Part shown: piece by piece, positions 4,335 to 8,141 of the stretch
Numbering within the stretch: the stretch's first letter is position 1
Layout: each line of letters starts with the position of its first letter
Notes under the pieces: generated by a model
Databases searched by the model: none
What the model saw: the letters and a program-made list of their open reading frames with translations, nothing else
Told to the model about the DNA's origin: nothing
Source of the DNA: Venatoribacter cucullus
GTDB taxonomy: Bacteria; Pseudomonadota; Gammaproteobacteria; Pseudomonadales; Oceanobacteraceae
NCBI RefSeq assembly: GCF_016132445.1
Contig: NZ_CP046056.1
Location: 1,426,001 to 1,490,000 of the forward strand
Direction of reading: 5' to 3'
DNA length: 64,000 nucleotides
Position numbers and translations under genes: made by a program

Positions 4335-5585
4335 TTACAGCTCTGGTTTCAGTTTCTTAAAGCGGGCACTGGCGTGGCGCTCGCGCATTTCGGTATCAAT
4401 GTAGCGGTCGGTGGTGGCCATGCTGGCGTGGCCGGCATCTTCCTTAACGTGCTCTTTGGGGCGGAATTTCACGTCTTCAGAAATGCCGGTATGGCGCAGC
4501 CAGTGCACGGTCGCTACTTTCAGCTCCTGCGCTTCATCTTCCAGCCCGTTCGCCCGCATCCGTTCATAGGAAGCATCAAAGCAGCTCTGCACCAGATAGC
4601 GGATCTGGCGGGTGCTGGTCACCGGGCCGCGACCTTTGATTTTCGGCACCAGCGGGGTTTGTTCGCCGACGTAGGGCAGGTTGGACAGCCCCAGGTGGCG
4701 GCGATAGCGCCGCAGGGCATTCAGCATATCGTCCGATACCGTCACCAGCCGGGCTTTGTTGCCCTTGCCGACCACGCGCAGCCACCAGTGGCCGTCGGCA
4801 TCGGTATGAAAATCGCCCATTACCGGCGTGGAGCGCTCATCGGCGACCAGCTCGGAAATACGCAGATACAGGCCAAACAGCAGCCGCATGACGAACAGCG
4901 AGCGTTCATGTTCGCCGGGATTCTCGCTGGCCATGGCTGCCACGGTTTCCAGCACGAAATCCCATTGCAGGTTGGAAATGCGCCGCACGGGCTCCTGATA
5001 GGCATGACGCTGCAGGAATTTGCTCTTCTGGCGGATCAGTGCCACCGGGTTGATGCGCAGGTAGTCTTCCTGCAGCAGGTAATTGAAGTAGGTCGACAAC
5101 ACCGCAAACAGTGCCTGCAGGCTCTTTTGTGACAGCACAAACCCGGCGCGGCTGTCGGGGTTATTCTTACTGGCCTGATTCACGAACGGCCGCCAGTCCG
5201 GATTGCGCACGCGCTCGCCTTGCTGGTTGCGGAAGCGGGCGACCTGTTTTTTACCGATCCAGGCGGCCGGCGGCGACTGGCAGAACTGCACATAGCTTTC
5301 CAGGTCCTGCCGGCGCAGCTGCTCCAGCGAACAGCCACGCACCAGCCAGCACCACTGCAGCAGGCGCTCCACTTCGCGCCGGTAGCTGTTAAAGGTGGCG
5401 GTGCTGCCGTTGTAGCTGACCAGAAAGCTCAGGCTGTGCACCAGATCTTCAAACACACCGGGCATGCCTTGCAGATCGGGCAGGCGGGTTAACACCTGGC
5501 GAGCGGTGGTGAGCGGATTGCCCAGGTGATCGATCTGGTCGATCAGCGGGGCTGGCGGGTTGTTCAGGCTGGCAAGGCTCATCAT
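4335..5585 (-). CDS. Tyrosine recombinase / phage-type integrase
   Basis: A 416-residue tyrosine recombinase with an N-terminal SAM-like core-binding region (about 45-180) and a C-terminal catalytic domain. The full catalytic set is visible: Arg242 in LRISEL, Lys274 or Lys277 in GKGNKAR, His361 and Arg364 in HWLRH, His386 in AGHAS and the nucleophile Tyr395 in DRYID. It is longer than XerC/XerD (about 300 residues) and than IntI, and it lacks an obvious arm-binding domain. It reads towards the PhaB remnant. Its start lies next to a sequence that repeats half of a dif-like palindrome found 0.9 kb upstream. The target site is inferred, not shown. It looks intact and probably active. Confidence 0.9.
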   Translation of the reverse strand: MMSLASLNNPPAPLIDQIDHLGNPLTTARQVLTRLPDLQGMPGVFEDLVHSLSFLVSYNGSTATFNSYRREVERLLQWCWLVRGCSLEQLRRQDLESYVQFCQSPPAAWIGKKQVARFRNQQGERVRNPDWRPFVNQASKNNPDSRAGFVLSQKSLQALFAVLSTYFNYLLQEDYLRINPVALIRQKSKFLQRHAYQEPVRRISNLQWDFVLETVAAMASENPGEHERSLFVMRLLFGLYLRISELVADERSTPVMGDFHTDADGHWWLRVVGKGNKARLVTVSDDMLNALRRYRRHLGLSNLPYVGEQTPLVPKIKGRGPVTSTRQIRYLVQSCFDASYERMRANGLEDEAQELKVATVHWLRHTGISEDVKFRPKEHVKEDAGHASMATTDRYIDTEMRERHASARFKKLKPEL

Positions 5586-5587
5586 AA

Positions 5588-5616
5588 TTCCGGATGTGTA
5601 AAATTATCGGAAATAT
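5588..5616. repeat. Recombinase-proximal copy of the dif-like half-site
   Basis: Positions 5602-5616 match 6494-6508 at 14 of 15 bases, including the 11-mer AATTATCGGAA. A weaker left arm, TTCCGGAT at 5588-5595, makes an imperfect dyad. The site begins 3 bp upstream of the recombinase start codon. It could be a crossover core site, an autoregulatory operator, or both. Confidence 0.5.
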
Positions 5617-5836
5617 GCCATTGGCTGAGTAAAAAAGCCAGTCAGCGCGGTGAAGAGCAGGGCGTACTTTATGAGCTGTCTACAGTGGTTGTTGAACAGG
5701 TTGTCTGCCTGCCCGTTTAACCGGATCTGGCTCAGGTGATGGTATGGCCTGGCAGAACAAACAGCCTGTACGCACTTGCGGCGCGGGGTTTTCAGTAGCA
5801 GGCCGGGCTGGTGCTTTCCCGATACCGCATCCATAC

Positions 5837-6234
5837 TTATCCACAGCCGGAGCTTACCGGTTTATGCGTAATAAGCGACGTACTCAGGGGTGTCAAAAGT
5901 GCCACGGGCAGCATAAGCTCTTGTTTTGCAGCCAGTGTTGCTCCGTAAAAGAAACAATCTAATTGTGGATAAGTGGCGCTGCAGACTGCCTGTTATCGGC
6001 AATAGAATCTTCAGGCTGGGTTCCTATTGGCTTTAACAATTGATCATAACTAAATGATCTATAAGAATATTTAGCATCATTATGCGGATTTGTGGCTATC
6101 TCTGTGAATAACAAGGCAACTGAGCAATAAGGCATCAATCAGACCGCTGAAGCTGGATGTACTATTTTAAGGCAAGCCGACAGGCGTTTGCGTTGCGCTA
6201 ACTGTGTGTGAACAATGGTACTGAGTTATGCACA
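5837..6234. other. Origin-like DnaA-box cluster with AT-rich core
   Basis: Four perfect matches to the DnaA box TTATNCACA lie within 400 bp: 5837-5845 (plus strand, TTATCCACA), 5964-5972 (minus, TTATCCACA), 6103-6111 (minus, TTATTCACA) and 6226-6234 (plus, TTATGCACA). An 8-of-9 match sits at 6207-6215 on the minus strand. The stretch at about 6027-6085 is clearly AT-rich, carries two GATC sites and includes GATCTATAAGAAT, which resembles the 13-mers of an unwinding element. No dnaA, dnaN, gyrB, parAB, mnmG or plasmid rep gene is near, so this is unlikely to be the main oriC. A captured plasmid origin or a datA-like DnaA-binding locus would both fit. The cluster is seen directly; the function is inferred. 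Confidence 0.6.
5864..5962 (+). CDS. Possible 32-residue cysteine-rich small protein
   Basis: A short frame starts at ATG 5864 and ends at TAA 5960. It encodes 32 residues with Cys10, Cys13, Cys22, Cys25 and Cys26, a CxxC-x8-CxxC arrangement like a miniature zinc knuckle with a basic N-terminus. GGAG lies 11 nt upstream of the ATG, which is weak support. The frame can be extended upstream to 5744. It lies exactly between the first two inverted DnaA boxes. It may be chance, since frames of this length are common. I do not recognise a family. Confidence 0.2.
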   Translation: MRNKRRTQGCQKCHGQHKLLFCSQCCSVKETI

Positions 6235-6244
6235 GCAGATTTTG

Positions 6245-6331
6245 GGCGGATTTGAACGTCCGGAACCAGGTTTCAGCGTCAGAATAATTTCACCAACCAA
6301 CCACCTGGTTCATATCCGGACAGAATCCGCC
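6245..6331. repeat. Long imperfect inverted repeat (three-helix hairpin)
   Basis: Three helices can form in register: GGCGGATT (6245-6252) with AATCCGCC (6324-6331), GTCCGGA (6258-6264) with TCCGGAC (6315-6321), and AACCAGGT (6264-6271) with ACCTGGTT (6303-6310). A 31-nt loop and unequal bulges remain. There is no T-run, so it is not a typical terminator. It could be a recombination or single-strand-origin structure, or a decayed insertion-sequence end. Confidence 0.55.
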
Positions 6332-6478
6332 GGGGGTATCTTAAGGTGACCGGACATCATCGTGGGGGCCTGACCGAGGCTCAGGCACTGTGAAACGTAA
6401 AACCCGTTCGGTATCTGGTTGTGCCGGCTGGTAAGGCTGGTTTAAGGATTCAGTCTGTGGATTTCGGGTATTTCTGCA

Positions 6479-6506
6479 ACTTCCGATAATATTAATTATC
6501 GGAAGT
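6479..6506. repeat. dif-like 28-bp palindrome
   Basis: The left 11-bp arm is ACTTCCGATAA, the centre is TATTAA and the right arm is TTATCGGAAGT. The arms are perfect inverted complements, and the perfect pairing extends to 12 bp per side around a 4-nt centre. The 11-6-11 spacing is that of Xer dif sites, and the left arm resembles XerC half-sites of plasmid pdif elements. The right arm is not the conserved XerD half-site TTATGTTAAAT. That argues for a symmetric single-recombinase site rather than the chromosomal dif. Confidence 0.55.
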
Positions 6507-6567
6507 ATTAGATGGTAATAGCTCAATCTTGCGCCGCCTAGCCAGTCATACCTGCTCAGTCAGCCGC

Positions 6568-6602
6568 GTGGCGTCTTTAATTAATACTGACACTGACGCC
6601 AC
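6568..6602. repeat. Inverted repeat downstream of the hydrolase gene
   Basis: GTGGCGTC at 6568-6575 pairs with GACGCCAC at 6595-6602 across a 19-nt AT-rich loop, 15 bp past the hydrolase stop codon. It may stabilise or terminate that transcript, but there is no following T-run. Confidence 0.4.
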
Positions 6603-6616
6603 ATAATTCTTCCCCC

Positions 6617-7504
6617 TTAGCCAAGCACGCGTTTCAGAAACGCCAGTTGATTCGATACGTTCTCCTCAAACCACGGTTGCAGATATGGATCAAAGTGATT
6701 CCCCTCGATGGTAATAATTGTGAAGTTCTCTCCTGCCTTGCGGCGCACCTTCACCTCATCAAATGGAGCAACCGTATCGTGCAGCGCACCGACAATTAGC
6801 CCTGGGATTGTGATGCGCGACAGATTTCTGCCTGGCTGATAAGGCCCCATGGTCAATAATGACACAGCGGTAACACGGTTATCGTATTTGCCATTCAGCT
6901 CCTCATCGACCCAATCCCGAAGCCGTCCGGCGCCATCCCGATCCATGGTTGAATAACCTCCCTCGTCAGACACGATGGGAATGTAGCGTCGCTTGAACGG
7001 ATTAATAAGATCCAGAGCGATATCCAGAGAGAATCTGAGCATTCGCATAAACGGAACCGCTGCTACTGCAGCCAATCCGTTCAACATAGGTACATGAGCC
7101 ACAACCCCAGCCACTTCAGGATGCTCCGCCGCCAGATCAATCGCATGACCACCACCAAAGGACGTCCCCCAGATAACGATTCTGTCTTCGTCGATCCTGT
7201 CCATGGATTTCAGATGAGCCAGAGCGGCATCGGCGACTCTGACCCGCTCCCATGGATTGATTCTGTTTCTGGGAATTCCCGGACTGGCACCCCAGCCAGG
7301 GTAGTCAAAAGTCATGACGGCATATCCGGCATCATTGAATCGCCGGATAAAATCCTTAAAAAGAACGAGCTGCGTACCACCCCACCCATGGATCATGAGA
7401 ATTGCCGGTGCTTGCCTGCCCTTATCATCAGCACCAAAGAGTGTTGCTGCGCACTCCATTCCCTCTGCTGTAAATGTCGACTTAACGCCATTGTTGAATG
7501 TCAT
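6617..7504 (-). CDS. Alpha/beta hydrolase (serine esterase/peptidase-like)
   Basis: A 295-residue alpha/beta-hydrolase without a signal peptide, so presumably cytoplasmic. The oxyanion HGWGG lies near residue 39, the nucleophile Ser115 is in GTSFGGG, the probable acid is Asp243 in LHDTVAP and the catalytic His270 is in GNHFDPY. The layout matches dienelactone-hydrolase/S9-like or DUF1100-type hydrolases. The substrate cannot be read from sequence. It is divergent from a TetR regulator with a palindromic operator between them, so it is probably induced by a small hydrophobic ligand or ester. By eye the gene is more AT-rich than the core genes either side, in keeping with transfer. Confidence 0.85.
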   Translation of the reverse strand: MTFNNGVKSTFTAEGMECAATLFGADDKGRQAPAILMIHGWGGTQLVLFKDFIRRFNDAGYAVMTFDYPGWGASPGIPRNRINPWERVRVADAALAHLKSMDRIDEDRIVIWGTSFGGGHAIDLAAEHPEVAGVVAHVPMLNGLAAVAAVPFMRMLRFSLDIALDLINPFKRRYIPIVSDEGGYSTMDRDGAGRLRDWVDEELNGKYDNRVTAVSLLTMGPYQPGRNLSRITIPGLIVGALHDTVAPFDEVKVRRKAGENFTIITIEGNHFDPYLQPWFEENVSNQLAFLKRVLG

Positions 7505-7527
7505 TTTTCCTCCTCAATCAGTTAGCT

Positions 7528-7544
7528 CTTGAATTGGATTCAAG
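7528..7544. promoter_or_regulatory. Probable TetR operator between the divergent genes
   Basis: A perfect palindrome (CTTGAAT, three bases, ATTCAAG) lies 24 bp upstream of the hydrolase start. A second dyad, TATCTT (7557-7562) with AAGATA (7574-7579), lies next to the regulator start. Either could bind the TetR dimer and control both genes. Assignment is by position and symmetry only. Confidence 0.6.
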
Positions 7545-7592
7545 AAAACACGATGTTATCTTATCTGTCAATCAAGATAGGAATGATTCATC

Positions 7593-8141
7593 GTGCCCCG
7601 CAACAAACGCCATTTAAATCAGGAAGAAAAAAAGCGTGAGATTCTGAATGCCGCTTCAGCTTTGTTTGCAGAGAATGGATTTGATGGCACCTCCATGACC
7701 GCGATTGCCAGATCAGCAGGCATTACTCCCAATACGATTTACTGGTATTTCCCCGGCAAGGATGATGTGCTGATCGGTGTGCTTAACAATCTGACGGCAG
7801 GTGTGCTTACTGAAATGGCCACCATGACCGCCCTCCCCATCAGGGAGCGATTGCTCAACGCCATCACGATCTTTGAACGTCCGGAATCGCTGATGAATAC
7901 AGTCCACTCGCGCATTACACAGTCAGAAGTAATTGCAGCCTGGCACTCACGTTTCCATATGTTGATCGAGCAGATTTTGGTTTACGAAATAATCAAAGCG
8001 GGGATTGCCAAAGAGCGGGCCGGAACCTTAGCCCGGCTTCTGGTGTATGTTATTGAAGGGCTCCTGTCACACCCTCTGCAGCAGAATGACAGGGAAAATA
8101 TGGTAGATGCCATGCTGGAACTCGCCAATCTGCCGGCCTGA
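7593..8141 (+). CDS. TetR/AcrR family transcriptional regulator
   Basis: A 182-residue TetR regulator. The N-terminal helix-turn-helix (about residues 14-60) has the family pattern ILNAASALFAENGFDGTSM, then AIARSAGIT and IYWYFPGKDDVL. The ligand-binding C-terminal half is divergent, as usual. Translation starts at GTG 7593, with AGGA about 10 nt upstream. It is divergently placed from the alpha/beta hydrolase and most likely represses that gene and itself through the palindromes between them. The stop codon lies about 7 bp from the broken end of a czcB remnant, so the gene marks the right end of the inserted DNA. Confidence 0.9.
   Translation: MPRNKRHLNQEEKKREILNAASALFAENGFDGTSMTAIARSAGITPNTIYWYFPGKDDVLIGVLNNLTAGVLTEMATMTALPIRERLLNAITIFERPESLMNTVHSRITQSEVIAAWHSRFHMLIEQILVYEIIKAGIAKERAGTLARLLVYVIEGLLSHPLQQNDRENMVDAMLELANLPA

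Follow-up and report, generated by a model that had tools for sequence, protein, structure and literature searches.

A XerL-type recombinase and a dif site at the replication terminus as the probable chromosome dimer resolution system of Venatoribacter cucullus, with a recurring dif half-site upstream of the recombinase gene

The closest described system is XerL/dif of the Legionellales. Nicholson, Deecker and Ensminger (2022), whose methods describe queries of a Legionellales database, demonstrated that XerL (lpg1867) is by itself sufficient at the dif of L. pneumophila (PMC9765430). A 2009 survey had listed the Legionellales, Colwellia psychrerythraea and Saccharophagus degradans as larger chromosomes without any dif/Xer (PMC2731167). 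The locus analysed here is like XerL/dif in protein clade, in size, in a terminus position judged by GC skew, in lacking XerC/XerD and in offering one recombinase candidate, and its site likewise has long uninterrupted arms (10 and 12 bp in Legionella and 12 bp here, compared by length only; PMC9765430). It differs in that the present hosts lie far outside the Legionellales treated in that study, and in that dif often lies in or near the recombinase promoter here, whereas the L. pneumophila dif is placed more than 400 kb from xerL (PMC9765430). A further difference is the solitary half-site that recurs ahead of the recombinase genes of the window's family; the evidence here is computational, that in Legionella a functional test. 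XerS/difSL and XerH/difH also pair one recombinase with a dif near its gene (PMC9765430), but XerS is remote in sequence, its model NF003462 scoring 22.9 bits against a cut-off of 267, by which an XerS identity was rejected, and XerH probably so, its structures being similar in fold at 12-15% identity. XerCD/dif shares the 28-bp site, its 11+6+11 layout, the terminus and the FtsK gamma domain, but uses two recombinases and asymmetric arms, whereas neither XerD over its cut-off nor a canonical dif is present here. Finally, homologues on large plasmids and elements (clade B) are ~38-42% identical and of comparable length, but fall outside the window's clade in two trees; clade B itself had support 88 in the first and did not form one group in the second.

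The window, that is the whole 64-kb stretch of DNA analysed, covers positions 1,426,001-1,490,000 of a single 2,827,114-bp contig starting with dnaA-dnaN-recF-gyrB (products recognised from translations). Its relevant features, in window coordinates, are the following.

4335-5585, minus strand: putative XerL-type single tyrosine recombinase of 416 aa (open frame, model scores and kinship to Legionella adelaidensis).
5587-5614, minus strand: degenerate 28-bp site around the half-site, 20/28 identical to dif, with 7/11 palindromic pairs and a second arm at 5/10.
5602-5616, minus strand: solitary half-site, one dif arm with TTCCGATAAT at 5603-5612 on the minus strand, 14/15 to an arm plus flank.
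6479-6506, no strand: dif site, with 12-bp arms at 6479-6490 and 6495-6506 and centre ATTA (11+6+11 in Xer notation).

We consider it very likely that the recombinase and dif form the host's chromosome dimer resolution system, replacing XerC/XerD, with the half-site best read as an operator. In the mechanism that we propose, four protomers of one XerL-type recombinase would assemble on the two like arms of dif in a chromosome dimer, and strand exchange there would yield monomers ahead of division. FtsK, with its DNA-reading gamma domain, would probably pair the two dif copies by tracking leading-strand-skewed motifs whose polarity reverses at dif. The lone arm in front of the gene would be an operator derived from an ancestral promoter dif, through which the recombinase would limit its own synthesis.

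The open frame of the recombinase is uninterrupted, and its catalytic set is complete, as the earlier note had claimed: R242, K274/K277, H361, R364, H386 and Y395, which we take to be the catalytic residues, are invariant among 29 aligned orthologues. The Pfam N-terminal SAM-like integrase domain scored 25 bits, above its cut-off of 22.3, and the Pfam catalytic integrase domain 22.3 bits, slightly below its cut-off of 27.1. The NCBIfam XerC, XerD, XerA and XerS models all remained far under their cut-offs; TIGR02224 reached 68.1 bits (cut-off 335.15) and TIGR02225 50.8 bits (cut-off 329.6), and the recombinase is therefore neither XerC nor XerD. Judged by these model scores, it is Xer-like yet none of XerC, XerD, XerA and XerS. 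A profile search of solved structures gave four matches, all weak and none of them to an XerH chain: XerA, XerD, an XerC-like protein from an archaeon and a chain that is labelled RaiA. A fold search with a structure model of middling quality (pTM 0.48; residues 366-398 at pLDDT <50; domain packing and C-terminus uncertain) matched, at E < 1e-3 but with low TM-scores, XerD, the Brujita integrase, XerH and Cre, besides one entry for a Cre-like product synapse.

The best matches in a plasmid collection were L. adelaidensis (51.5% identity, 97% covered) and L. fallonii (48.7%), followed by large plasmids at ~39%. In the first tree, the window recombinase grouped with L. adelaidensis, a Legionellaceae MAG and Rickettsiella (SH-aLRT 96), far from XerC/XerD; L. 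fallonii formed a long branch within this clade and was left out of the second tree. There, the clade was supported at 90/90 and a subclade with the Legionellales rows at 96/93, with the Legionellaceae nested inside. The clade also holds Marinomonas, Microbulbifer, Colwelliaceae and others, and the plasmid and element copies stand outside it. The L. adelaidensis recombinase gene adjoins tig-clpP-clpX-lon and, in L. pneumophila, lpg1861 is clpP and lpg1862 is tig (PMC5928044); xerL (lpg1867) is expected close to these two, and the L. adelaidensis gene and xerL point to one place. By this kinship, which runs through Legionellales relatives and not through L. pneumophila XerL itself, the window recombinase is assigned to the single-recombinase Xer proteins of XerL type. 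The earlier note was right in proposing that a single Xer recombinase is paired here with a dif-like site, now placed in the XerL clade and at the terminus, and in giving weight to the half-site, but wrong in supposing it undescribed, the XerL clade being known (PMC9765430).

The site itself reads ACTTCCGATAATATTAATTATCGGAAGT. The 11-bp perfect inverted arms and 6-bp centre noted earlier hold on the sequence, and the arms in fact extend to 12 bp around a 4-bp centre. At ≤3 mismatches the 28-mer has one match in the window, versus none in 100 shuffles, and one match in the entire 2.83-Mb genome; with one site genome-wide at this threshold, duplicated att sites bounding an element were not found. 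In the family, the pattern TTCCGATAAT-N4-ATTATCGGAA (≤2 mismatches) recurred in 40/44 genomes, with a single match in 38 of the 40, while the reversed control pattern matched 0/44, and the full site is therefore not due to chance. The neighbouring genes are thiI and those for an alpha/beta hydrolase and a TetR regulator.

The position of the site in the chromosome is that of the terminus. Cumulative GC skew over 1,390,001-1,490,000 (500-bp bins) was maximal at 1,432,501 and dif starts at 1,432,479, a distance of 22 bp that falls inside one 250-bp bin; in the sampled stretches, skew was positive before dif and negative after it. We compared eight chromosomes (the window genome, G003, G011, G018, G019, G025, G028 and G038), in which the contig starts near dnaA in seven (not in G011), using 250-bp bins over about 200 kb around the site to locate the skew change point. 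The site lay at 0.474-0.507 of chromosome length in all eight and within 5.4 kb of the change point in seven (+22, -113, -448, +1081, +3103, -3587 and +5402 bp). If change points were spread evenly in ±100 kb, such agreement in 7/8 would have a chance of ~1e-8, an estimate that is rough because the stretches were picked around the site. The exception is G025, the sole chromosome with a displaced skew switch, which is -25,856 bp (25.9 kb) off the site, at the recombinase gene. The gene and the site are 54 kb apart in G028 and 34 kb apart in G011, and the skew switch follows the site. The prediction of a site no more than about 1 kb from the gene in every case fails in these two genomes, and also in Marinomonas, where 18/20 loci have no site in the flank (≤10 kb) although the genomes have one. 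Altogether, the 28-mer is very probably the chromosome's own dif, and the local resolution or integration module suggested earlier is not borne out, a chromosomal dif at the terminus skew switch being almost certain.

Gene and site also occur together. Among 34 family genomes searched for both, all were concordant: 31 had the gene (orthologues 56-100% identical) and the site, and three had neither (G001, G002 and G032, the last with a 41% homologue only). The site was matched in 29/30 named genomes, with Marinomonas at 19/19 (perfectly in 18 and with 1 mismatch in the other); the unmatched genome is that of Reinekea blandensis, where the orthologue is present and the site absent at ≤2 mismatches. 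A second set gave the site in 7/9 further named genomes, two of which look already counted (the match of G332 is that of G199, and G327 that of G092), and in 8/24 distant orthologue carriers, some of these eight probably by chance. The reversed-pattern control matched 6/54 and 5/52 genomes, and single 2-mismatch matches may for this reason be chance. At the same threshold of ≤2 mismatches no site was found in G051, G101, G227, G220, the clade-B-only genomes G048, G049 and G054 or the 451-kb L. adelaidensis record; in distant orthologue carriers the motif has mostly diverged. A palindrome widespread without the gene, which would have spoken against the earlier note, was not seen: XerD genomes carried an XerL-type site (≤2 mismatches) in 0/13 and 0/19 cases in two sets. 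A genome scan confirmed at least 539 relatives, and the best 80 of these loci, which we analysed, come from Thalassolituus, Marinomonas, Microbulbifer, Thalassotalea, Granulosicoccus, Rickettsiella and others.

The recombinase and XerD, in turn, exclude each other. XerD exceeded its cut-off in 13 of 55 relatives; these 13 had no homologue at ≥38% identity and all had a canonical dif, which was found (≤2 mismatches) in 15/55, the other two being G040, whose best XerD-model match of 292.8 bits is within the XerC range, and G002, with four canonical sites on two contigs. XerC was looked for through the XerD model only, with which XerC-like proteins scored 273-306 bits in 11/13 XerD genomes, among the matches listed. 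The window genome has no canonical dif at ≤2 mismatches, and its best XerD-model match (75.9 bits for a single piece and 134.6 over the full protein, cut-off 329.6) is an integron integrase; with neither XerC/XerD equivalogs nor canonical dif found there, membership of the XerCD/dif class was rejected. Of 232 evenly drawn gammaproteobacteria, 46 matched profile A1 at E≤1e-20, and in 30 the match reached ≥400 bits. XerD was over its cut-off in 175/232 overall, namely 0/30 with a ≥400-bit orthologue versus 175/202 of the others (Fisher p ~3e-22, a statistic that ignores common descent). Two of the 30 strong matches have an in-frame stop (G068 and G176), and G176 has an XerD-model match below the cut-off. 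Only one of 30 named genomes, Pseudomaricurvus alkylphenolicus, combined the orthologue with XerD over the cut-off.

FtsK gamma was present in 29/30 genomes searched, including the window genome (at 1,358,762). Its VQR motif, whose arginine we equate by register with R1289, was kept in 20/20 domains of XerL and XerCD genomes alike, and an altered gamma domain as the mark of a lost XerD contact was rejected on this ground. R1289 is the arginine of E. coli FtsK that contacts XerD (PMC5052618). FtsK gamma shows no visible difference between the two kinds of genome and is thus uninformative on contact with the window Xer. The motif AGCAGGG, which was chosen for its skew in the window genome, is found there 15/2 times (forward/reverse) left of the site and 9/27 times right of it; its polarity also switches at the site in 6/7 other chromosomes, G025 being weak (8/4, 6/6), and general strand skew could explain part of this switch. 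Coupling of FtsK to recombination at dif is plausible.

The half-site at 5602-5616, AATTATCGGAAATAT, starts 17 bp ahead of the recombinase ATG and matches 6494-6508 at 14/15, two of the 15 bases lying outside the 28-mer. The earlier description of it was accurate, and it sits in a degenerate 28-bp site. Upstream of 30 family genes, a perfect, solitary TTCCGATAAT in the same orientation was found in 23, a full site in one (L015) and none in six. Unselected scoring of 28 family loci gave 10/10 in 21 (the full site of L015 included), 6-8/10 in seven and 9/10 in none; five more loci were unscorable, their start motif missing. When 230-bp windows were drawn at random from these loci, sites included, 78/1500 gave 10/10. 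Because the solitary copy recurs upstream of 23/30 family genes, the half-site is not due to chance either. Across the best 80 of at least 539 relatives' loci, 10/10 was reached upstream in 23/80 (full sites counted) versus 8/800 random windows and, by reading, ~20/80 loci have a complete dif-like palindrome upstream, for example in Microbulbifer, Aestuariibacter, Thalassomonas, Natronospirillum (imperfect) and one of two Granulosicoccus. In Marinomonas, 0/20 loci showed a half-site or dif-like palindrome upstream of the gene; in one of them, L178, there is an inverted repeat that is G+C-rich and does not resemble dif.

We read the half-site best as an operator retained from an ancestral promoter-borne dif, through which the recombinase may repress itself; the simplest history would be that dif lay in the promoter and was displaced later, one arm being retained. 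An operator is favoured by the conservation of one arm where the flanks are not conserved: flank conservation is 0.13-0.17 bits versus 1.6-1.7 bits at the adjoining dif-like bases -3, -2 and +10, in related genomes whose ten core positions are perfect through the choice of rows. MrpR, which we take to be a phage regulator with a tyrosine-recombinase fold, ranked 33rd in the fold search (E 0.14) and is a possible precedent for this fold in such a role. Alternatively, the half-site could be a functionless, decaying relic of the same promoter-borne dif, as full palindromes at this position in several other genera and the erosion of the second arm to 0-5/10 in seven scored cases would allow; we hold this to be unlikely, since decay does not sit well with family matches that are bimodal (10/10 in 21/28 or 6-8/10 in 7/28, never 9/10), nor with flanks almost without conservation beside three well-kept dif-like bases. 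Less likely still is conservation as a promoter -10 box and not for Xer binding. GATAAT does differ by one base only from TATAAT, the consensus -10 hexamer, but a TTGACA-like hexamer at a spacing of 16-18 was not above other spacings in 24 loci, so that a -35 at the right spacing is missing and the sigma-70 reading was rejected, and TTCC and the dif-like flank are conserved as well.

That the protein is instead a mobile-element integrase with the palindrome as its att, perhaps inserted at the terminus, is very improbable: relatives at ~38-42% identity do occur on large plasmids, G025 carries one as its second copy and G032, G048, G049 and G054 carry no other kind, and Xer-exploiting elements are known in Legionella (LME-1, PMC9765430), but family genomes mostly hold one site, terminus-located wherever the gene sits, the recombinase stands in for XerD, and the only matching phage records are three at 27-29% identity.

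With dimer resolution as the preferred reading, a broader proposal can be put forward tentatively, at somewhat less than even confidence: XerL/dif may be an alternative dimer resolution system in many gammaproteobacterial families, swapped with XerCD several times, with dif originally in the recombinase promoter and serving as operator and, where it was displaced, one arm kept so that the recombinase would be its own repressor. Several swaps are suggested because one genome of each kind, XerL-type and XerD, is found under family code f55 and likewise under f132. The system would be of a known kind with a wider range (further papers cited for this verdict: PMC5357621, PMC8138268, PMC3025954); the recurring half-site is the novel part, and its regulation possibly new. 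Among the papers listed in literature searches, judged by titles and abstract beginnings and with subscription literature little covered, an XerL-type system outside the Legionellales was not reported and, as far as this literature shows, an XerL-type dif/Xer is new for these marine bacteria. XerL settled the case of the Legionellales in the 2009 survey; a system of the same kind is now seen in Colwelliaceae (Thalassotalea, Thalassomonas), Microbulbifer and many genomes labelled Oceanospirillaceae, C. psychrerythraea and S. degradans themselves being outside the sample. The question of missing dif/Xer can thus be put to a direct test in marine bacteria that are easy to culture, with dif sites proposed for more than 12 genera and a cheap, specific hypothesis on the control of Xer recombinases.

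Several minor observations concern the neighbourhood of dif and unusual genomes. The alpha/beta hydrolase and TetR-type regulator adjoining dif occupy 6617-8141 of the window, and the G+C of 6001-8000 is low (0.485 versus 0.531-0.619 in the remaining 2-kb bins). In G025, a 41% clade-B recombinase and a second palindrome, ACCTACGATAA-CATTGA-TTATCGTAGGT, lie within 10 kb of dif (G025:C1:2155892-2166003; L075:5893-16190) and may mark the insertion of an element close to it. Rickettsiella massiliensis (G323) has three dif-like sites with 0-1 mismatch on two contigs, versus a single site in most genomes. Contigs labelled Kordiimonadales, Marinicaulis and Sphingopyxis (L183, L194, L200 and L156), which are alphaproteobacterial names, encode the recombinase, by mis-binning or transfer. 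A 1.0-Mb genome has a broken relative with several stops (G218:C1:628453-629467).

Other recombinases were met on the way. By the XerD model, the remaining tyrosine recombinases of the window genome are the integron integrase (G000:C1:1708166-1709134, L002:763-1731; 369.4 bits, cut-off 265), the gamma-mobile-trio recombinase GmtY (L007:778-2244; 534 bits, cut-off 340) and a 450-aa integrase-like protein. Relatives below 60% identity are encoded by 1702 plasmid records (Klebsiella, Burkholderia, Pseudomonas and others), 1642 of them covering ≥80% of the query, and XerL-like enzymes possibly serve plasmid dimer resolution. Around four plasmid clade-B genes (4 kb each side, GATA-word palindromes only being listed) no convincing palindrome was found, the sole one being an inverted repeat in L307, unlike dif. 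The L. adelaidensis 'plasmid 9' (NZ_LR134418.1, L139) may be a chromosome segment labelled plasmid, since tig, clpP, clpX, lon, spoT and gmk adjoin the recombinase there. A second, clade-B recombinase lies in the 21-kb locus of xerL in Aestuariibacter sp. AA17 (L166) and Gammaproteobacteria bacterium 42_54_T18 (L184). Genus g7 (G014, G019, G023, G027 and G031) has a second recombinase, 32-34% identical and on a long separate branch, ~1.5-2.3 kb from xerL; its loci include L079:10037-11368 and L085:4312-5517, and three matching loci are from Oleispira.
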